From NCBI GenBank assembly GCA_029194535.1, contig JARFXR010000002.1:1116001-1180000 (forward strand): 64,000 bases of DNA, read 5' to 3'. Made by a program: the position numbers and the translations under genes. The notes below the pieces were generated by a model, which was not told the DNA's origin, ran no database searches, and saw only the letters and a program-made list of their open reading frames with translations. This stretch comes from Nitrospira sp. (GTDB lineage: Bacteria > Nitrospirota > Nitrospiria > Nitrospirales > Nitrospiraceae). Shown here one piece after another: positions 5,481 through 9,788 of this stretch (its first letter is position 1; each line of letters opens with the position of its first letter).

Positions 5481-6260
5481 ATGCTATTAGAGGGGAAAAA
5501 AGGATTGGTCGTCGGCGTCGCCAACAAGCACAGCATCGCCTGGGCGATCGCCCAGTCAGCCGCAGGCCAGGGGGCTCGGCTCATGTTCAACTATCAAAAT
5601 GAGCGTCTCAAAGAGAACGTCGAGGAATTGGCCGCCACCATGCCGGGCGCTAAAGCCTTTCCCTGCGATGTCGGCGACGATGCGCAGATCTCCGCTCTGA
5701 TGCAGCAAGTGCAAAAAGAGGTCGGCACCCTCGATTTCCTTGTCCACTCGGTCGCCTTTGCTCCCCGGGAGGAACTGACCGGTCAGTTCGTCAACACCAC
5801 GCGACAAGGGTTCGCCACCGCTCTGGATGTCAGCGCCTACTCCCTCGTGGCCGTAACGAGAGCGGCGTTGCCGCTGATGACCAACGGCGGCTCGATCGTC
5901 ACGCTCACCTATCTCGGCGCCGAACGGGTGGTCCAGCATTACAACGTGATGGGCGTCGCCAAGGCCGCGCTGGAATCGACCGTTCGCTACCTCGCGCACG
6001 ACCTGGGTCCCAAGAACGTACGGGTCAACGCCGTCTCCGCCGGACCAATCAAGACGCTTGCCGCTCGCGGCGTATCCGGCATCAGCAAGATGGTCGATCA
6101 TCACAAGGAGTTTGCTCCGCTCCGCCACGCCACCGAGCAGGGAGAAGTGGGCGACACCGCGCTCTTTCTCATCAGCCCGCTCAGCCGGGGTATTACCGGA
6201 GAGGTGATCTACGTGGACGGCGGCTATCATATCCTGGGGTCGCTGGTCTCAATGGAGTAG
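5481..6260 (+). CDS. fabI: Enoyl-[acyl-carrier-protein] reductase (NADH)
   Basis: 259 residues, the normal FabI size, from the ATG at 5481 (AGGGGAG upstream). The frame is open to 5412, but that extension has no family match. It is a divergent short-chain dehydrogenase: the nucleotide-binding segment LVVGVANKHSIAWAIAQ is at residues 9-25, and the catalytic Tyr144, Tyr154 and Lys161 (TYLG and YNVMGVAK) have the FabI Tyr-x6-Lys spacing. It reduces trans-2-enoyl-ACP in the last step of each fatty-acid elongation cycle and is the triclosan/isoniazid-type target. It is the last core gene before the mobile patch. Confidence 0.95.
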   Translation: MLLEGKKGLVVGVANKHSIAWAIAQSAAGQGARLMFNYQNERLKENVEELAATMPGAKAFPCDVGDDAQISALMQQVQKEVGTLDFLVHSVAFAPREELTGQFVNTTRQGFATALDVSAYSLVAVTRAALPLMTNGGSIVTLTYLGAERVVQHYNVMGVAKAALESTVRYLAHDLGPKNVRVNAVSAGPIKTLAARGVSGISKMVDHHKEFAPLRHATEQGEVGDTALFLISPLSRGITGEVIYVDGGYHILGSLVSME

Positions 6261-6301
6261 CTTGGCCCCCTCGGCGGATGCCTCGCTTCTTCGACAAGTC
6301 G

Positions 6302-6330
6302 CGCCGCAGGGCGCCTGCGCCTGAGGCGTA
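6302..6330. repeat. 29-base dispersed repeat, copy 1
   Basis: CGCCGCAGG-GCGCCTGCG-CCTGAGGCGTA matches 54327-54355 at 26 of 29 positions. It is partly self-complementary (GCAGG/CCTGC). It lies immediately beside the displaced arfB 3' end, at the left edge of the accessory patch. Confidence 0.5.
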
Positions 6331-6338
6331 AGCAGCAC

Positions 6339-6446
6339 TCAATCGATCGTTCGCCCGAGCGCTTTCAGTCGCCCTCGTTTCGTCTTGCTCTCCAACCGCC
6401 GCTGTGTTGAAGTCCTGGTGGGTTTCGTCGGTTTTCGTTTCTTGCT
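6339..6446 (-). pseudogene. Displaced 3' end of a second arfB
   Basis: Read on the minus strand, 35 codons plus a stop encode [33 protein letters not shown]. This aligns without gaps to the C-terminal tail of the intact arfB at 7602 ([33 protein letters not shown]). No GGQ domain precedes it, so it is a remnant and not a gene. The two copies differ at about a quarter of positions and bracket the DUF433/DUF5615 pair in the same orientation. This is the arrangement left when an element integrates into, or recombines at, the 3' end of a gene. Confidence 0.75.
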
Positions 6447-6496
6447 CGAAATGGTTCTGAAAAAGGTGCCCGTACATCGCGGCAGAACTCTTGCGT

Positions 6497-6865
6497 TTAC
6501 CGAACCAGGGGAAGAATGCGTGACCGGAGCCGTGCCTCATCGACCGTGATAAGAGCTCCTTGCTGGAGGATTACCTCATGTTGCCGAAGAGCCCGAACAA
6601 TCAGATCAGCCAGATGTTCAGGGCTTACATCCTGCGCCCGCATTTGAATAACGCTTGGAGCTGCTGCCTGCGAAATCGCAAGGATGGCGCCAAAATCCAA
6701 ATCGTTGGTGAACACCACATACTCATTCTCCCGTGCCCACCCCATAATCACAGAATCTGAAGCCCTCCCGTCGCCGACAGACGAGCAGTGGATTGCCGAA
6801 AAGCCGTGGCGTTCAAGAGCTGACACCCATGAGGGCGACAGATTCATATCAACGAGAATTTCCAC
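6497..6865 (-). CDS. DUF5615 PIN-like toxin
   Basis: 122 residues of the DUF5615 (Mut7-C/PIN-like) family. It begins EILVDMNLSPSWVSALERHG, with Asp6 in the first acidic position, and has FTNDLDFGAIL (Asp55, Asp57), the second acidic cluster of PIN-type nucleases. Proteins of this family pair with DUF433 proteins and are regarded as VapC-like toxins that cleave RNA. The start overlaps the end of the DUF433 gene by 22 bases, a normal toxin-antitoxin coupling. The target is unknown. Confidence 0.85.
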   Translation of the reverse strand: MEILVDMNLSPSWVSALERHGFSAIHCSSVGDGRASDSVIMGWARENEYVVFTNDLDFGAILAISQAAAPSVIQMRAQDVSPEHLADLIVRALRQHEVILQQGALITVDEARLRSRILPLVR

Positions 6866-7092
6866 GTGGACGCCAGAGGAATCTCAATCTCCTCAGCACG
6901 CCAGGCCGCGTAGGAAAGAGCCGCTGAAATGTCAGGCTCTTCCAGGTATGGGTACAGCTTGAGAATCTCTTCGTTCGATCGGCCGGCCGCGACCAAACCA
7001 ACGATGGTCCCAACTGTCACCCGCAGCCCCCGAATACAAGGTTTACCACCCATAACTTGGGGGTTGGTCGTAATCCGTGTAGCCTTGTTCAT
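6844..7092 (-). CDS. DUF433 antitoxin
   Basis: 82 residues of the DUF433 family: ITTNPQVMGGKPCIRGLRVTVGTIVGLVAAGRSNEEILKLYPYLEEPDISAALSYAA. The first half is a helix-turn-helix-like DNA-binding unit and the C-terminal tail (EEIEIPLAS) is expected to bind the toxin. It is first in the pair, as expected of an antitoxin that also represses its own promoter. The 510-base region upstream, back to arfB, holds the candidate recombination half-site at 7142-7173. Confidence 0.85.
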   Translation of the reverse strand: MNKATRITTNPQVMGGKPCIRGLRVTVGTIVGLVAAGRSNEEILKLYPYLEEPDISAALSYAAWRAEEIEIPLASTWKFSLI

Positions 7093-7601
7093 ATGAACAC
7101 CGCCGTCACGAACATGGATTATCGCTCCCGCTCTTGTGGAGGGCTAACTTTACGAGTGTGCTGCAGATTACCGATGTTGCATTGCAAGGCAGTCTCAGCG
7201 AGGTGACGCGAGCAAGTCAAGTGCAAACCCATCGGCTTAGCAATCACTGTGTCCGGCGTCCCCCACCTACAGAGGAGGCGGCAGCCGATGTTACGATCCG
7301 CCCGCAAGATATCGGCCGACGAGTCATGGCAGCGGTGGCTGTCAATGCGTCGTAGGGCTGGAACACCAGCACGCTCCAAGTGCTTCAGCTCGACCGCTCA
7401 GCGGCTCGTCGAGACTCAGTTGCGGAACTCGTTCCGTTCCGAGCTTCGCTGAACGGAACATCGAACAGTCCTCACTGTCGCTTCGCGACCGTCTCTCCTT
7501 GCCGGTGCGGGACCCGAGCTTTCGCACAAGTCGCGTGCTCGGCATTCCAGCCCTGCCAAGCCCAGCAAGGCCCAGATCGACATCACCCACGCAAGTCGTG
7601 T
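7093..7601. other. Non-coding stretch between antitoxin and arfB
   Basis: No credible gene is seen in 509 bases. It holds the attC-like half site at 7142-7173 and three consecutive perfect hairpins: 7389-7413 (CTCGAC/GTCGAG with inner CCGC/GCGG), 7431-7459 (GTTCCGTTC/GAACGGAAC) and 7477-7489 (GTCGC-TTC-GCGAC). The hairpins suggest a structured RNA or remnants of a mobile element, but nothing identifies which. Confidence 0.5.
7142..7173 (-). repeat. attC-like recombination half site
   Basis: On the minus strand this reads CGGTAATCTGCAGCAC, nine bases, GTTAGCC. It closely matches the site at 9116-9146 (CGGTAGCCTGCAGCAC ... GTTAGAC). Both lie just upstream of a cassette-like gene start. GTTAGCC resembles the R' box of integron attC sites, where the GTT triplet is conserved. 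I cannot find a matching R'' half, so this is at most a partial or decayed site. Confidence 0.4.
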
Positions 7602-8012
7602 CTACTCCAGCGTTCGCCTCAGAGCTTTCAATCGTCCACGTTTGGCCTTGTTATCCAGCCGCCGCTGCTTTGAAGTCCTGGTGGGTTTTGTCGGTCTTCG
7701 CTTCTTGCGTGGCACTGCCACGCTTTGAATGAGGGCTCGCAGGCGACCCAACGCCTCTTCGCGATTCTGCTCCTGGCTGCGATGCTCCTGCGCCTTAATC
7801 GTGATCACGCCGTCGTCTGAAATACGGTGATCCTTCAGCTTGAGCAGTTCCTGCTTATAGAACGGCGGCAACGAAGACGCGCCGATATCGAAGCGCAGAT
7901 GAATAGCCGACGATACTTTGTTGACGTGCTGCCCCCCGGCCCCCTGCGACCGCACCGCATGGATCTCGATTTCAGAGTCGGGGATGATGACATGGGAGGA
8001 GATGTGAAGCAT
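7602..8012 (-). CDS. arfB: Alternative ribosome-rescue factor ArfB (YaeJ type)
   Basis: 136 residues, close to E. coli YaeJ (140). The release-factor GGQ loop is at 26-28 within [23 protein letters not shown] linker is followed by the basic C-terminal tail ([24 protein letters not shown]) that enters the empty mRNA channel. ArfB hydrolyses peptidyl-tRNA on ribosomes stalled without a stop codon. There is no anticodon-recognition domain, which separates it from RF1 and RF2. Its 3' end is partly duplicated at 6339-6446, and an attC-like site lies upstream at 8151-8224. Confidence 0.92.
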
Positions 8013-8150: not shown

Positions 8151-8224
8151 GGCTAACGCGCCGCTTCAGCTGCGGGTGGCTCACAATGGTACCAGCCGCC
8201 GTCGGCTGCGGTCGGAAGTTAGAC
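8151..8224 (-). repeat. Integron-type attC site after mrr
   Basis: A 74-base imperfect palindrome. Read on the minus strand it starts with GTCTAAC (8224-8218), a match to the R'' consensus RYYYAAC, and ends with GTTAGCC (8157-8151), an R'-like box; the two boxes pair at 6 of 7 positions. Inner segments also pair: CAGC with GCTG, and GGCGGCT with AGCCACC (6 of 7), leaving a centre of about a dozen bases. The mrr stop codon TAA is the TAA of GTCTAAC, as is common in gene cassettes. No integron integrase is in the window. Confidence 0.6.
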
Positions 8225-9100
8225 CACATCCTTGGCGAACTGGCTGAAGAACGATTCGTCGAGTTCGTAGGTCCGCTTCGGCTTCAGGCCGAGCTGAAGT
8301 TCCTCAAGCATTCCAGCCAACTTCTCGCCATCAACCAACTCGATTGGAGGGGCACCGTCTCGAACGGCCTCTTTGCGCGCTTCCGACGTGAACGAGCCGG
8401 TTGTGATGATGATGCCCTTATCGGCACGGCCCGTCATCGCGCCACGGAAGTCTCGCACTTGGCTCGGGGAAACAGAACCCGTGTACTTCTTGCACTGGAA
8501 CAGGACCTTGAAGCTTACGAGCGGGTTGACCTGGAGAATACCGATGCCGTCGATGCCGCCATCCCCTGAACGTCCCGTGATGGTCACTTCCTGGAACCCC
8601 GATTCTCTGAGGAGGCGTTGACAGAATCGCTCAAAGCCCGATGCCGGAAGATCCTGCAGTGTTCGAGCCAGCTCCTCGCGATAGTTTCCGACGATTGGTA
8701 CGGTGCCAGTTACACTGGGTGCTGCATCAATATCGTCGACGGCTGCACCCCTTGTCCGTGCATTGACCTCTTGAACAATTGAGATGATGTCGGTGTCGCT
8801 TACGTCACCAAGCTGCCGGCCCTTGTCGGTGAGGGTCCAAACACCCCGCTGCGATGAATCGATGTATCCGGCCTTGGCAAGATAGAACCTAGCCCAATGG
8901 ACCTGATTCTCGAATCGAGTTTGAACCCCGGAGGGCAGTGGTTCCGACTGCTCCGCTTCCGAAATGCTCAGGCGACGAGCAATGACAGCCCGAACCTCGT
9001 CTGGCCGTCCTGATCCGCCCAATTCCCGGACTGCGGCAATCACAGGCCCGAGGTAGCGGGCGAACCGCGAGGCCACCTTCTTGCTCTCCTTCGGAGGCAT
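8219..9100 (-). CDS. mrr: Mrr-type restriction endonuclease (type IV)
   Basis: 293 residues. The N-terminal winged-helix region (about 10-105, Mrr_N: VRAVIARRLSISEAE ... VHWARFYLAKAGYIDSSQRGVWTLTDKGRQ) reads DNA. The C-terminal Mrr catalytic domain (about 145-270) has the PD-(D/E)xK variant GDGGIDGIG (Asp184) and FQCKKY (Gln202, Lys204). Such enzymes cut DNA carrying foreign methylation. The start is 16 bases after a GTTAGAC box and the stop lies inside an attC-like site, so the whole gene has the shape of a mobile gene cassette. No methyltransferase is nearby, consistent with type IV. Confidence 0.9.
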   Translation of the reverse strand: MPPKESKKVASRFARYLGPVIAAVRELGGSGRPDEVRAVIARRLSISEAEQSEPLPSGVQTRFENQVHWARFYLAKAGYIDSSQRGVWTLTDKGRQLGDVSDTDIISIVQEVNARTRGAAVDDIDAAPSVTGTVPIVGNYREELARTLQDLPASGFERFCQRLLRESGFQEVTITGRSGDGGIDGIGILQVNPLVSFKVLFQCKKYTGSVSPSQVRDFRGAMTGRADKGIIITTGSFTSEARKEAVRDGAPPIELVDGEKLAGMLEELQLGLKPKRTYELDESFFSQFAKDVV

Positions 9101-9146: not shown

Positions 9147-9310
9147 TGCGGCATAGCACTGCTGCCTAAGTAGTCCAAGAGGAAGCAACACTACCTGAAC
9201 ATCCAACACTTGTTCAATATTGGTCCTGTTCAGCCGGTCGGGATAGATGGCGAACGTGCAGTCTACCCGCCTATCAGCTCACAGCATATCCGGATTCTTA
9301 GCCAACCATC

Positions 9311-9528
9311 GGCTGGGCCGCTTCCCTGCCGACGTTGCCGCAGGAACCGGGACTCACCGAGACTCTTCCGGGAAGGAAGGCTGGAACTGACCAAGGCACC
9401 GCGATCCGTGATCGCGGCCGCGGGAATTCCAGAAGGTCGGCGCCGAAATCTACGGCGGCGAGAATTCCACCCGGAAGAGTCCGGGAGGGTGGTTCCGGGA
9501 GGCAGGAAGGCAGGGAAGCAGCCCAGCC
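9311..9528. repeat. 218-base nested imperfect palindrome
   Basis: Outer arms 9311-9330 and 9509-9528 pair at 19 of 20 positions (GGCTGGGC and GCTTCCCTGCC blocks). Inner arms 9361-9372 and 9470-9481 (GACTCTTCCGGG) pair at 12 of 12. Near the centre CCGCGATC-CGT-GATCGCGG (9399-9417) is a perfect 8-bp hairpin, and GGAATTC/GAATTCC flanks a further stem. There is no coding potential. It resembles a MITE-like or cruciform element and lies between mrr and the next conserved gene. Confidence 0.75.
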
Positions 9529-9563
9529 CTGTCATTCAGAAATTCGTCAGGAGCTGCTAAGGA

Positions 9564-9788
9564 TTATTGCAACTCCGGCAGGCGATCAATAATACGGAGC
9601 CTGACCTCGTCACCCACCTGCATCTGCACCATCTTCGTGGTGAGACTCGTCTTCACTCGCTGAGCATCCTCCAGCTTGAACTGGACTTGCCCGCCGCATT
9701 GTTCAACGAGATGAAACAACAGCAGGGTCGTCAATCGCTGGAGCTCGTCGTCAGACGTATGCTCGCTCAGGTTCAAGATTTGAGACAT
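9564..9788 (-). CDS. Small conserved-looking hypothetical protein
   Basis: 74 residues from the ATG at 9788 (MSQILNLSEHTSDDELQRLTT...), ending IIDRLPELQ. The frame is open for a further 62 codons upstream, but that part overlaps the 3' end of the PLP enzyme gene and looks non-coding. The product is soluble and helical at its start, then beta-like (GGQVQFKLED, VQMQVGDEVRLRI). I do not recognise the family. It follows the PLP enzyme gene by 130 bases on the same strand. Confidence 0.6.
   Translation of the reverse strand: MSQILNLSEHTSDDELQRLTTLLLFHLVEQCGGQVQFKLEDAQRVKTSLTTKMVQMQVGDEVRLRIIDRLPELQ

Follow-up and report, generated by a model that had tools for sequence, protein, structure and literature searches.

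A nested palindrome in a Nitrospira genome belongs to a repeat family of small, probably mobile DNA hairpins

What is the long palindrome that lies next to a restriction gene in the genome of Nitrospira sp. (assembly GCA_029194535.1)? It is found within a stretch of 64,000 nucleotides from contig JARFXR010000002.1 (positions 1,116,001 to 1,180,000), which we call the window and within which all positions are numbered. A first-pass annotation, made from the sequence alone, had described a nested palindrome of 218 bases at 9311-9528, with outer arms, inner arms, and a central hairpin. We found that these coordinates and this anatomy are correct (Table 1). Furthermore, additional blocks pair between the named arms, such as CTGGAA (9381-9386) with TTCCAG (9427-9432). 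The palindrome is contained within a match to the covariance model of its family, and the outer edge of its 3' outer arm is 36 bp from the stop codon of a gene that encodes a protein of 74 amino acids. As single-stranded DNA, 9300-9540 folds with an energy of -79.2 kcal/mol (z = -8.9), and none of 200 dinucleotide shuffles (mean -47.5, standard deviation 3.6) matched this. The annotation had also stated that the palindrome has no coding frame. This holds in that a gene caller that considers codon usage places no gene on it, but not in the literal sense, as open reading frames of 85-116 amino acids can be drawn through it.

Table 1. Features of the palindrome and of its surroundings in the window
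Feature	Position	Strand	Details
Full match to family covariance model R1	9303-9537	+	Model positions 1-210; E = 1.5e-32
5' outer arm	9311-9330	+	20 bp; one mismatch with 9509-9528
5' inner arm	9361-9372	+	GACTCTTCCGGG; 12 bp; pairs perfectly with 9470-9481
Conserved tip	9381-9432	+	CTGGAACTGACC (9381-9392), apical hairpin, GAATTCCAG (9424-9432)
Apical hairpin	9399-9417	+	8 bp, perfect (9399-9406 / 9410-9417)
3' inner arm	9470-9481	+	CCCGGAAGAGTC; 12 bp; pairs perfectly with 9361-9372
3' outer arm	9509-9528	+	20 bp; one mismatch with 9311-9330
Resident gene (74 amino acids) whose stop codon is abutted by the element	9564-9788	-	Occupies this position in five relatives too; nothing matched in Pfam
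Mrr-type restriction endonuclease, accessory, on the 5' side of the element	8219-9100	-	Mrr_cat 5.8e-32; Mrr_N 4.3e-25
Possible decayed second copy (weak)	7347-7560	-	20.9 bits; E = 0.0016; adjoins DUF5615/DUF433 gene pair

The palindrome is not unique: it belongs to a family of small, probably mobile DNA hairpins, copies of which are found across Nitrospira and its relatives. In its own genome (G000), we found 7 matches at the DNA level and 10 matches to the covariance model with E ≤ 1, of which 8 have E < 1e-9. DNA matches are present in 6 of the 7 genomes of the genus and, across a set of genomes at the level of the Nitrospiraceae, in at least 50 of 98 genomes and at least 18 of 22 genera. 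(These are lower bounds, as scoring stopped at 8 candidates in most of the genomes.) Together with homologues in a second family of the phylum, which are described below, the 8 copies in this genome and the 50 genomes with matches bear out the earlier suggestion of a palindromic repeat family. When we scanned one genome per species (84,980 species) with a pattern, we obtained 78 stretches, and 76 of these are titled Nitrospira, Nitrospirae, Nitrospirota, or Nitrospiraceae. The other two are from a Patescibacteria bin and a Pyrinomonadaceae bin and may be mis-binned contigs. We searched collections of phages, plasmids, and viruses and found no carrier of the element. The family appears to be undescribed in the literature that we searched, as judged by the title or the start of the abstract among the matches listed, with subscription journals mostly outside the search; the passages of PMC5767232 on palindromic repeats in Nitrospira are about CRISPR.

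The window copy is an insertion, because the orthologous site lacks the element in four relatives (G001, G003, G005, and G006). These genomes keep the gene order fabI - arfB - 74-aa gene - aminotransferase. In G000, two blocks interrupt this order: the DUF5615/DUF433 pair with the possible decayed copy, and the Mrr gene with the element. The Mrr gene has no nucleotide match in the corresponding loci of five relatives. Over the left flank of the element (9238-9337), G000 and the orthologous place of the relative G004 are 80% identical; G004 has about 100 bp of this flank in common with G000 and then diverges. Recombination-type sites had been proposed to adjoin the palindrome; what we found there is this flank and the Mrr-type gene, and the sites were not confirmed as such. 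In G001 and G004 (loci L203 and L204), another repeat, which ends in TTGTTCAACAGCCTG or a similar sequence, directly adjoins the 74-aa gene at its stop codon, so the end of this gene attracts more than one repeat family. Near the single copy of the element in G001, there are open reading frames (L100:8366-10754) that we take to resemble a CBASS-type nucleotidyltransferase and a nuclease effector.

To describe the structure of the family we used an alignment (A1) of 42 copies. (Of 68 copies, 52 passed and 46 of those were non-redundant.) The consensus is a single unbranched hairpin of about 205 nt with 59 pairs and 91.5% pairing cells. Both sides have changed in 42 of the 59 pairs. This, along with the eight copies in the genome, is the opposite of the single copy without compensatory changes that the first-pass annotation had named as evidence against its proposal. 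The covariation score was 0.423, as compared to 0.174 for shuffled alignments, and none of 500 shuffles reached the observed value; this comparison is inflated by the relatedness of the sequences. Sliding the partner out of register, which retains the relatedness, gave scores of at most 0.106, but the structure has an advantage here in having been derived from this very alignment. Invariant bases are concentrated near the tip of the hairpin. The sequence of the apical hairpin differs among copies, with compensatory changes.

Mismatches indicate which form of the hairpin is under selection. Across the 42 copies, there are 153 G-T pairs versus 40 A-C mismatches, or 73 versus 13 if we consider only the inner pairs and leave out one position that is constitutively G-T. 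G-T pairs are in excess in 39 of the 42 sequences, and A-C mismatches are in excess in none of them. Because a double-stranded cruciform would not show such an asymmetry, the selected form should be one folded strand, namely the + strand of the window. (C-to-T mutational bias on the exposed strand could add to the excess of G-T pairs.) This tolerance of wobble pairs on one strand only disfavours the long double-stranded cruciform that had been proposed.

Where close orthologous copies differ by single changes, broken pairs are about as frequent as pairs that are kept, and there are a few paired double changes; these statements rest on the listed close pairs, as the summed totals mix close and distant copies. 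Therefore, selection for the structure in place is weak, which suggests that selection acts on the structure chiefly when a copy moves and less while it stays in place. We had considered compensatory change in place as proof of a function for the host, and between close orthologous copies such change is weak. We also considered whether the outer arms are built from the target gene and are thus specific to each locus. At purQ, the 3' arm does overlap the stop codon. However, we rejected this idea because genes that are unrelated to each other have arms of the same classes, so the outer arms follow subfamilies.

Other conserved sequences lie near some of the copies. Directly 5' of the element, 21 of 84 copies have a terminator-like hairpin with an AAGCG-type loop, as compared to 2 of 84 on the 3' side. 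This hairpin is conserved with paired changes (for example, in L113, L112, L174, L111, L140, and L182). For some copies, a stretch further upstream of the element is conserved as well, and what moves as a unit may extend beyond the palindrome itself. A different repeat, with ends like GCGCATGATTCATGG, is found inside or beside decayed copies (in the 5' flanks of L152, L138, the second copy of L094, L142, and L050) and is possibly a second mobile repeat that is nested.

We then asked where copies lie relative to genes, using 100 copies: 91 of 103 matches, plus 9 copies from G000 and G001 (including L100, which has no gene called on either side). The other 12 matches were reverse-strand shadows, weak matches, a match that is cut by the end of a contig (L132:2342), and three matches in integrase loci (two in L189 and one in L196). 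Just 1 of the 100 copies overlaps a predicted gene. All 27 copies that are within 20 bp of a gene have their 3' edge turned towards a stop codon. When the distance is widened to 60 bp, the 3' edge is next to a stop codon in 46 cases and next to a start codon in 5, and the 5' edge is next to a stop codon in 1 case and next to a start codon in 2; the control for this rule is the comparison of the two edges of the element, rather than a random intergenic background. With one copy per orthologous abutting gene (85 copies), the corresponding counts are 33, 5, 0, and 1. Because the 3' edge faces the stop codon, the folded strand is antisense to the gene that precedes it.

The abutting genes are mostly core genes (n = 48; 4 PurQ-type, 2 SecA, and 2 sigma-54 activators). 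On the 5' side, the genes are often accessory: of 77 listed, 73 were aligned and scanned, and these include N6 methylases (3), the N-terminus of HsdR (3), Eco57I (2), Fic (2), PIN (2), ParE (2), and Mrr (1), while others are ordinary. There are no transposase families among the 25 commonest Pfam families of these 73 genes. The window copy follows this general pattern, with the 74-aa gene on its 3' side and the Mrr gene on its 5' side. At purQ, the element is directly behind the gene in 4 of 30 loci, and there the last codon of the gene differs from that of relatives without the element, so the edge of the element seems to supply the stop codon. At some genes, among them purQ and secA, a copy has been retained in several genomes. 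Two loci have a duplication of the 3' end of the abutting gene: in L095, 4574-4715 and 6036-6177 are 91.5% identical over 142 bp, with the duplicate on the far side of the element and of a Fic gene, and in L151, 1185-1411 and 2851-3077 are 86% identical over 227 bp. These two cases look like integration by recombination in the end of the gene. As a general mark of integration, the duplication was rejected, since just these 2 of 54 abutting genes have it.

Homologues in a sister family link the hairpin to IS66 elements. We searched 198 genomes from the phylum with the covariance model, and 29 of them matched at E ≤ 1e-6: 23 from the Nitrospira family and 6 from one other family. In these six genomes, we identified 17 copies with a common core and a shorter tip. 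Their covariation score was 0.257, versus 0.077 when shuffled, in an alignment that was fitted to the structure beforehand. Most of the 17 copies are enclosed by long terminal repeats of the type GTAAYnCCTCGGTGAA. Target duplications match at 8 of 8 bp in L261, L265, and L267 and at 7 of 8 bp in L262 and L264; in the other 12 copies, the match was lower or the ends were not located. In L276, an IS66 transposase gene (798-2174) lies between two inverted copies of GTAACCCCTCGGTGAACGGGGG, whose start is identical in L262 and has close variants in other copies of the sister family. The flanks of this IS66 element show no clear target duplication. According to the relevant passages of PMC11946415, IS66 elements have terminal repeats that start with GTAAGCG and make 8-bp duplications. 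We found an IS66 transposase in 4 of the 6 sister-family genomes, as compared to 1 of the 23 Nitrospira-family genomes searched.

The sister family also illustrates how structure is kept while sequence changes. In G165, the 14-nt arms pair perfectly in all 10 copies, even though the arms are just 75% identical between copies; the core of 9 of these 10 copies is 95% identical. Sister-family copies are mostly near the starts of genes, with 9 of 17 between divergent genes, so the stop-codon rule is a trait of the Nitrospira family.

The first-pass annotation had listed a MITE among the possibilities. For the sister family this is correct in kind, as copies there have the 8-bp duplications and the ends in common with an IS66 element that are expected of IS66-type MITEs. 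In contrast, the Nitrospira copies do not show the target duplications of a classical MITE: among 82 copies, 4 have a duplication of at least 7 of 8 bp, versus 3.1 in shuffles. Nor did we see any IS66-type ends that start with GTAA in the aligned Nitrospira copies and flanks that we inspected, including the window copy. We class these copies only as a palindromic mobile repeat family.

Overall, the palindrome is probably a copy of a mobile palindromic element that is non-autonomous and that works as one folded strand, in the form of a single, interrupted hairpin of about 205 nt. Only the hairpin would need to be kept for a copy to get moved, so that the sequences of the arms would be nearly free to vary as long as both arms match. 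The window copy was inserted between arfB and the 74-aa gene, in a patch that also gained the Mrr gene, and having its 3' edge just behind the stop codon of a resident gene would do little harm. In the sister family, the IS66 transposase is the most likely mover, because the hairpins lie inside IS66-type terminal repeats with 8-bp duplications. Since the Nitrospira copies have other outer arms and no visible target duplication, their mover would be another enzyme, or an IS66 transposase that has since been lost. We infer that the structure is maintained through recognition of the hairpin, and that transposition is how the copies in Nitrospira have spread. Several results count against a mobile element: the lack of a duplication signal in Nitrospira, the presence of an IS66 transposase in just 1 of 23 family genomes, the IS66 element of L276 without a clear duplication, the 12 of 17 sister-family copies in which no duplication reaches 7 of 8 bp, the lack of transposases among the 25 commonest Pfam families on the 5' side, and the weak selection in place. 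Also, the strong rule for the 3' edge is unusual for a simple MITE.

That rule is one reason to consider that the element might be a structured RNA that is used by the host, or a transcription insulator behind genes, similar to the effects on mRNA that have been proposed for ERIC, and that it is repeated incidentally. This would account for the strong strand-specific structure, the conserved unpaired bases near the tip, the position behind stop codons, the excess of terminator-like hairpins on the 5' side (21 of 84 copies versus 2 of 84), and the retention of some copies across several genomes (at purQ and secA, for example). However, because the strand that folds runs antisense to the abutting gene, the element would not act in that gene's mRNA. 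Furthermore, its presence is patchy (4 of 30 purQ loci), there is little compensation between close orthologous copies, and at 7 loci none of the Rfam 15 covariance models matched on the element, with E-values up to 5 inspected. We consider this explanation unlikely.

Another idea is that the hairpin is a landing or exchange module, with its edge anchored to the stop codons of core genes, and that it bounds slots that swap restriction, toxin-antitoxin, and small accessory genes. It would then be an integrase-independent counterpart of integron cassettes that rides on unrelated carriers (IS66 ends in one family and other arms in Nitrospira). The main support is one example: in two genera (L051 and L052), a slot beside a gene that is presumably Rsm22-like is bounded by the same two types of element and has different genes inside. 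We view this idea as doubtful. Among the 78 loci from the pattern scan, there are 10 inverted and 4 direct pairs of copies, and the 3' edges point outward in all 10 of the inverted pairs. Direct repeats of the element surround RelBE-like and PIN-like genes. L166:634-1191 and L137:1038-1611 each contain a head-to-head pair of copies that are just 161-178 bp apart, which resembles a slot between two genes with nothing in it.

The element could also be a site of single-strand recombination at the borders of exchangeable gene cassettes, as the attC sites of integrons are. The folded strand of attC is antisense to the preceding gene and lies close behind its stop codon, and attC sites keep their structure while their sequence varies. 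The Nitrospira element is similar in all of these respects, and both the slot of L051 and L052 and the direct repeats around RelBE-like and PIN-like genes would fit as well. Integron-type integrases adjoin copies of the element at two loci (L002/L094 and L055/L093). These integrases have an N-terminal extension; the one in L094 (G000; near 6250-7700) is broken and the one in L093:3847-5373 (G044) is open, and each diverges from a copy of the element. Although this link was promising, just 2 of 14 integrase loci hold a copy, and an integrase was found in 10 of 96 family genomes versus the element in 50 of 98, so the element has no consistent integrase partner. Also, copies usually abut core genes that are resident and not cargo (the gene beside the window copy is resident in relatives), and inverted pairs outnumber direct ones among the close pairs of copies (10 of 14). 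An attC-like site is improbable.

It is very improbable that the element is a long REP or REPIN that is moved by a RAYT (Y1) transposase. REPs are palindromes that lie close behind stop codons, and a single folded strand in this position fits their style; indeed, G000 has four matches to Y1_Tnp. But the transposase does not track the element: of 25 genomes with at least 4 copies, 9 have no match to Y1_Tnp (G009, G015, G021, G024, G028, G033, G042, G046, and G067), so we rejected this link. The element is also several times as long as a REP (about 205 nt, versus 10-71 nt for the REPs described in the passages of PMC12306157, which also give 446 of 4,072 predicted REPs in E. coli as being within 15 nt of a stop codon). 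Finally, a cruciform or origin-like structure that is specific to this place, which the strong palindrome had suggested, can practically be dismissed given the many dispersed copies (99 of 100 outside of predicted genes), the empty orthologous site in four relatives, and the strand-asymmetric pairing.

As a mobile hairpin, the element would work like the small palindromic mobile repeats of enterobacteria, which we compared by their published descriptions. Like them, it has many dispersed intergenic copies, a long stem-loop, and sites that are filled or empty between relatives. As described in parts of PMC2229807, YPAL (RU-2) of Yersinia is a palindromic repeat of 168 bp, its targets span or adjoin dyad symmetry, and its copies follow upstream genes; it is likewise a small intergenic mobile palindrome with a long stem-loop. 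In contrast to the 3-26 bp target duplications that are reported there for YPAL, the Nitrospira copies show none that are detectable. The Nitrospira element also belongs to another lineage, folds as the antisense strand, and has one edge that is tied to a stop codon. ERIC (IRU or RU-1) is another repeated intergenic palindrome, of 127 bp, from enterobacteria, and its orientation matters for its reported effect (same passages of PMC2229807). The Nitrospira element is longer, has a different sequence range, and has no TA-ended terminal repeats that we noted. As for IS66-family MITEs, their GTAAYnCCTCGGTGAA ends and 8-bp duplications set the sister-family copies apart from the Nitrospira copies, and the Nitrospira copies differ from attC in following resident core genes instead of cassettes.

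Nitrospira and their comammox relatives are major nitrifiers. In these bacteria, some patches of restriction and toxin-antitoxin genes have the element at their edges, and such patches are easy to find because the repeat can be defined. The family also lends itself to the study of how the shape of a mobile hairpin is preserved as its sequence diverges, as in the ten copies of G165. And because one hairpin core has different ends in two families, both the identity of its mover and the extent to which the hairpin is independent of its carrier can be tested directly.
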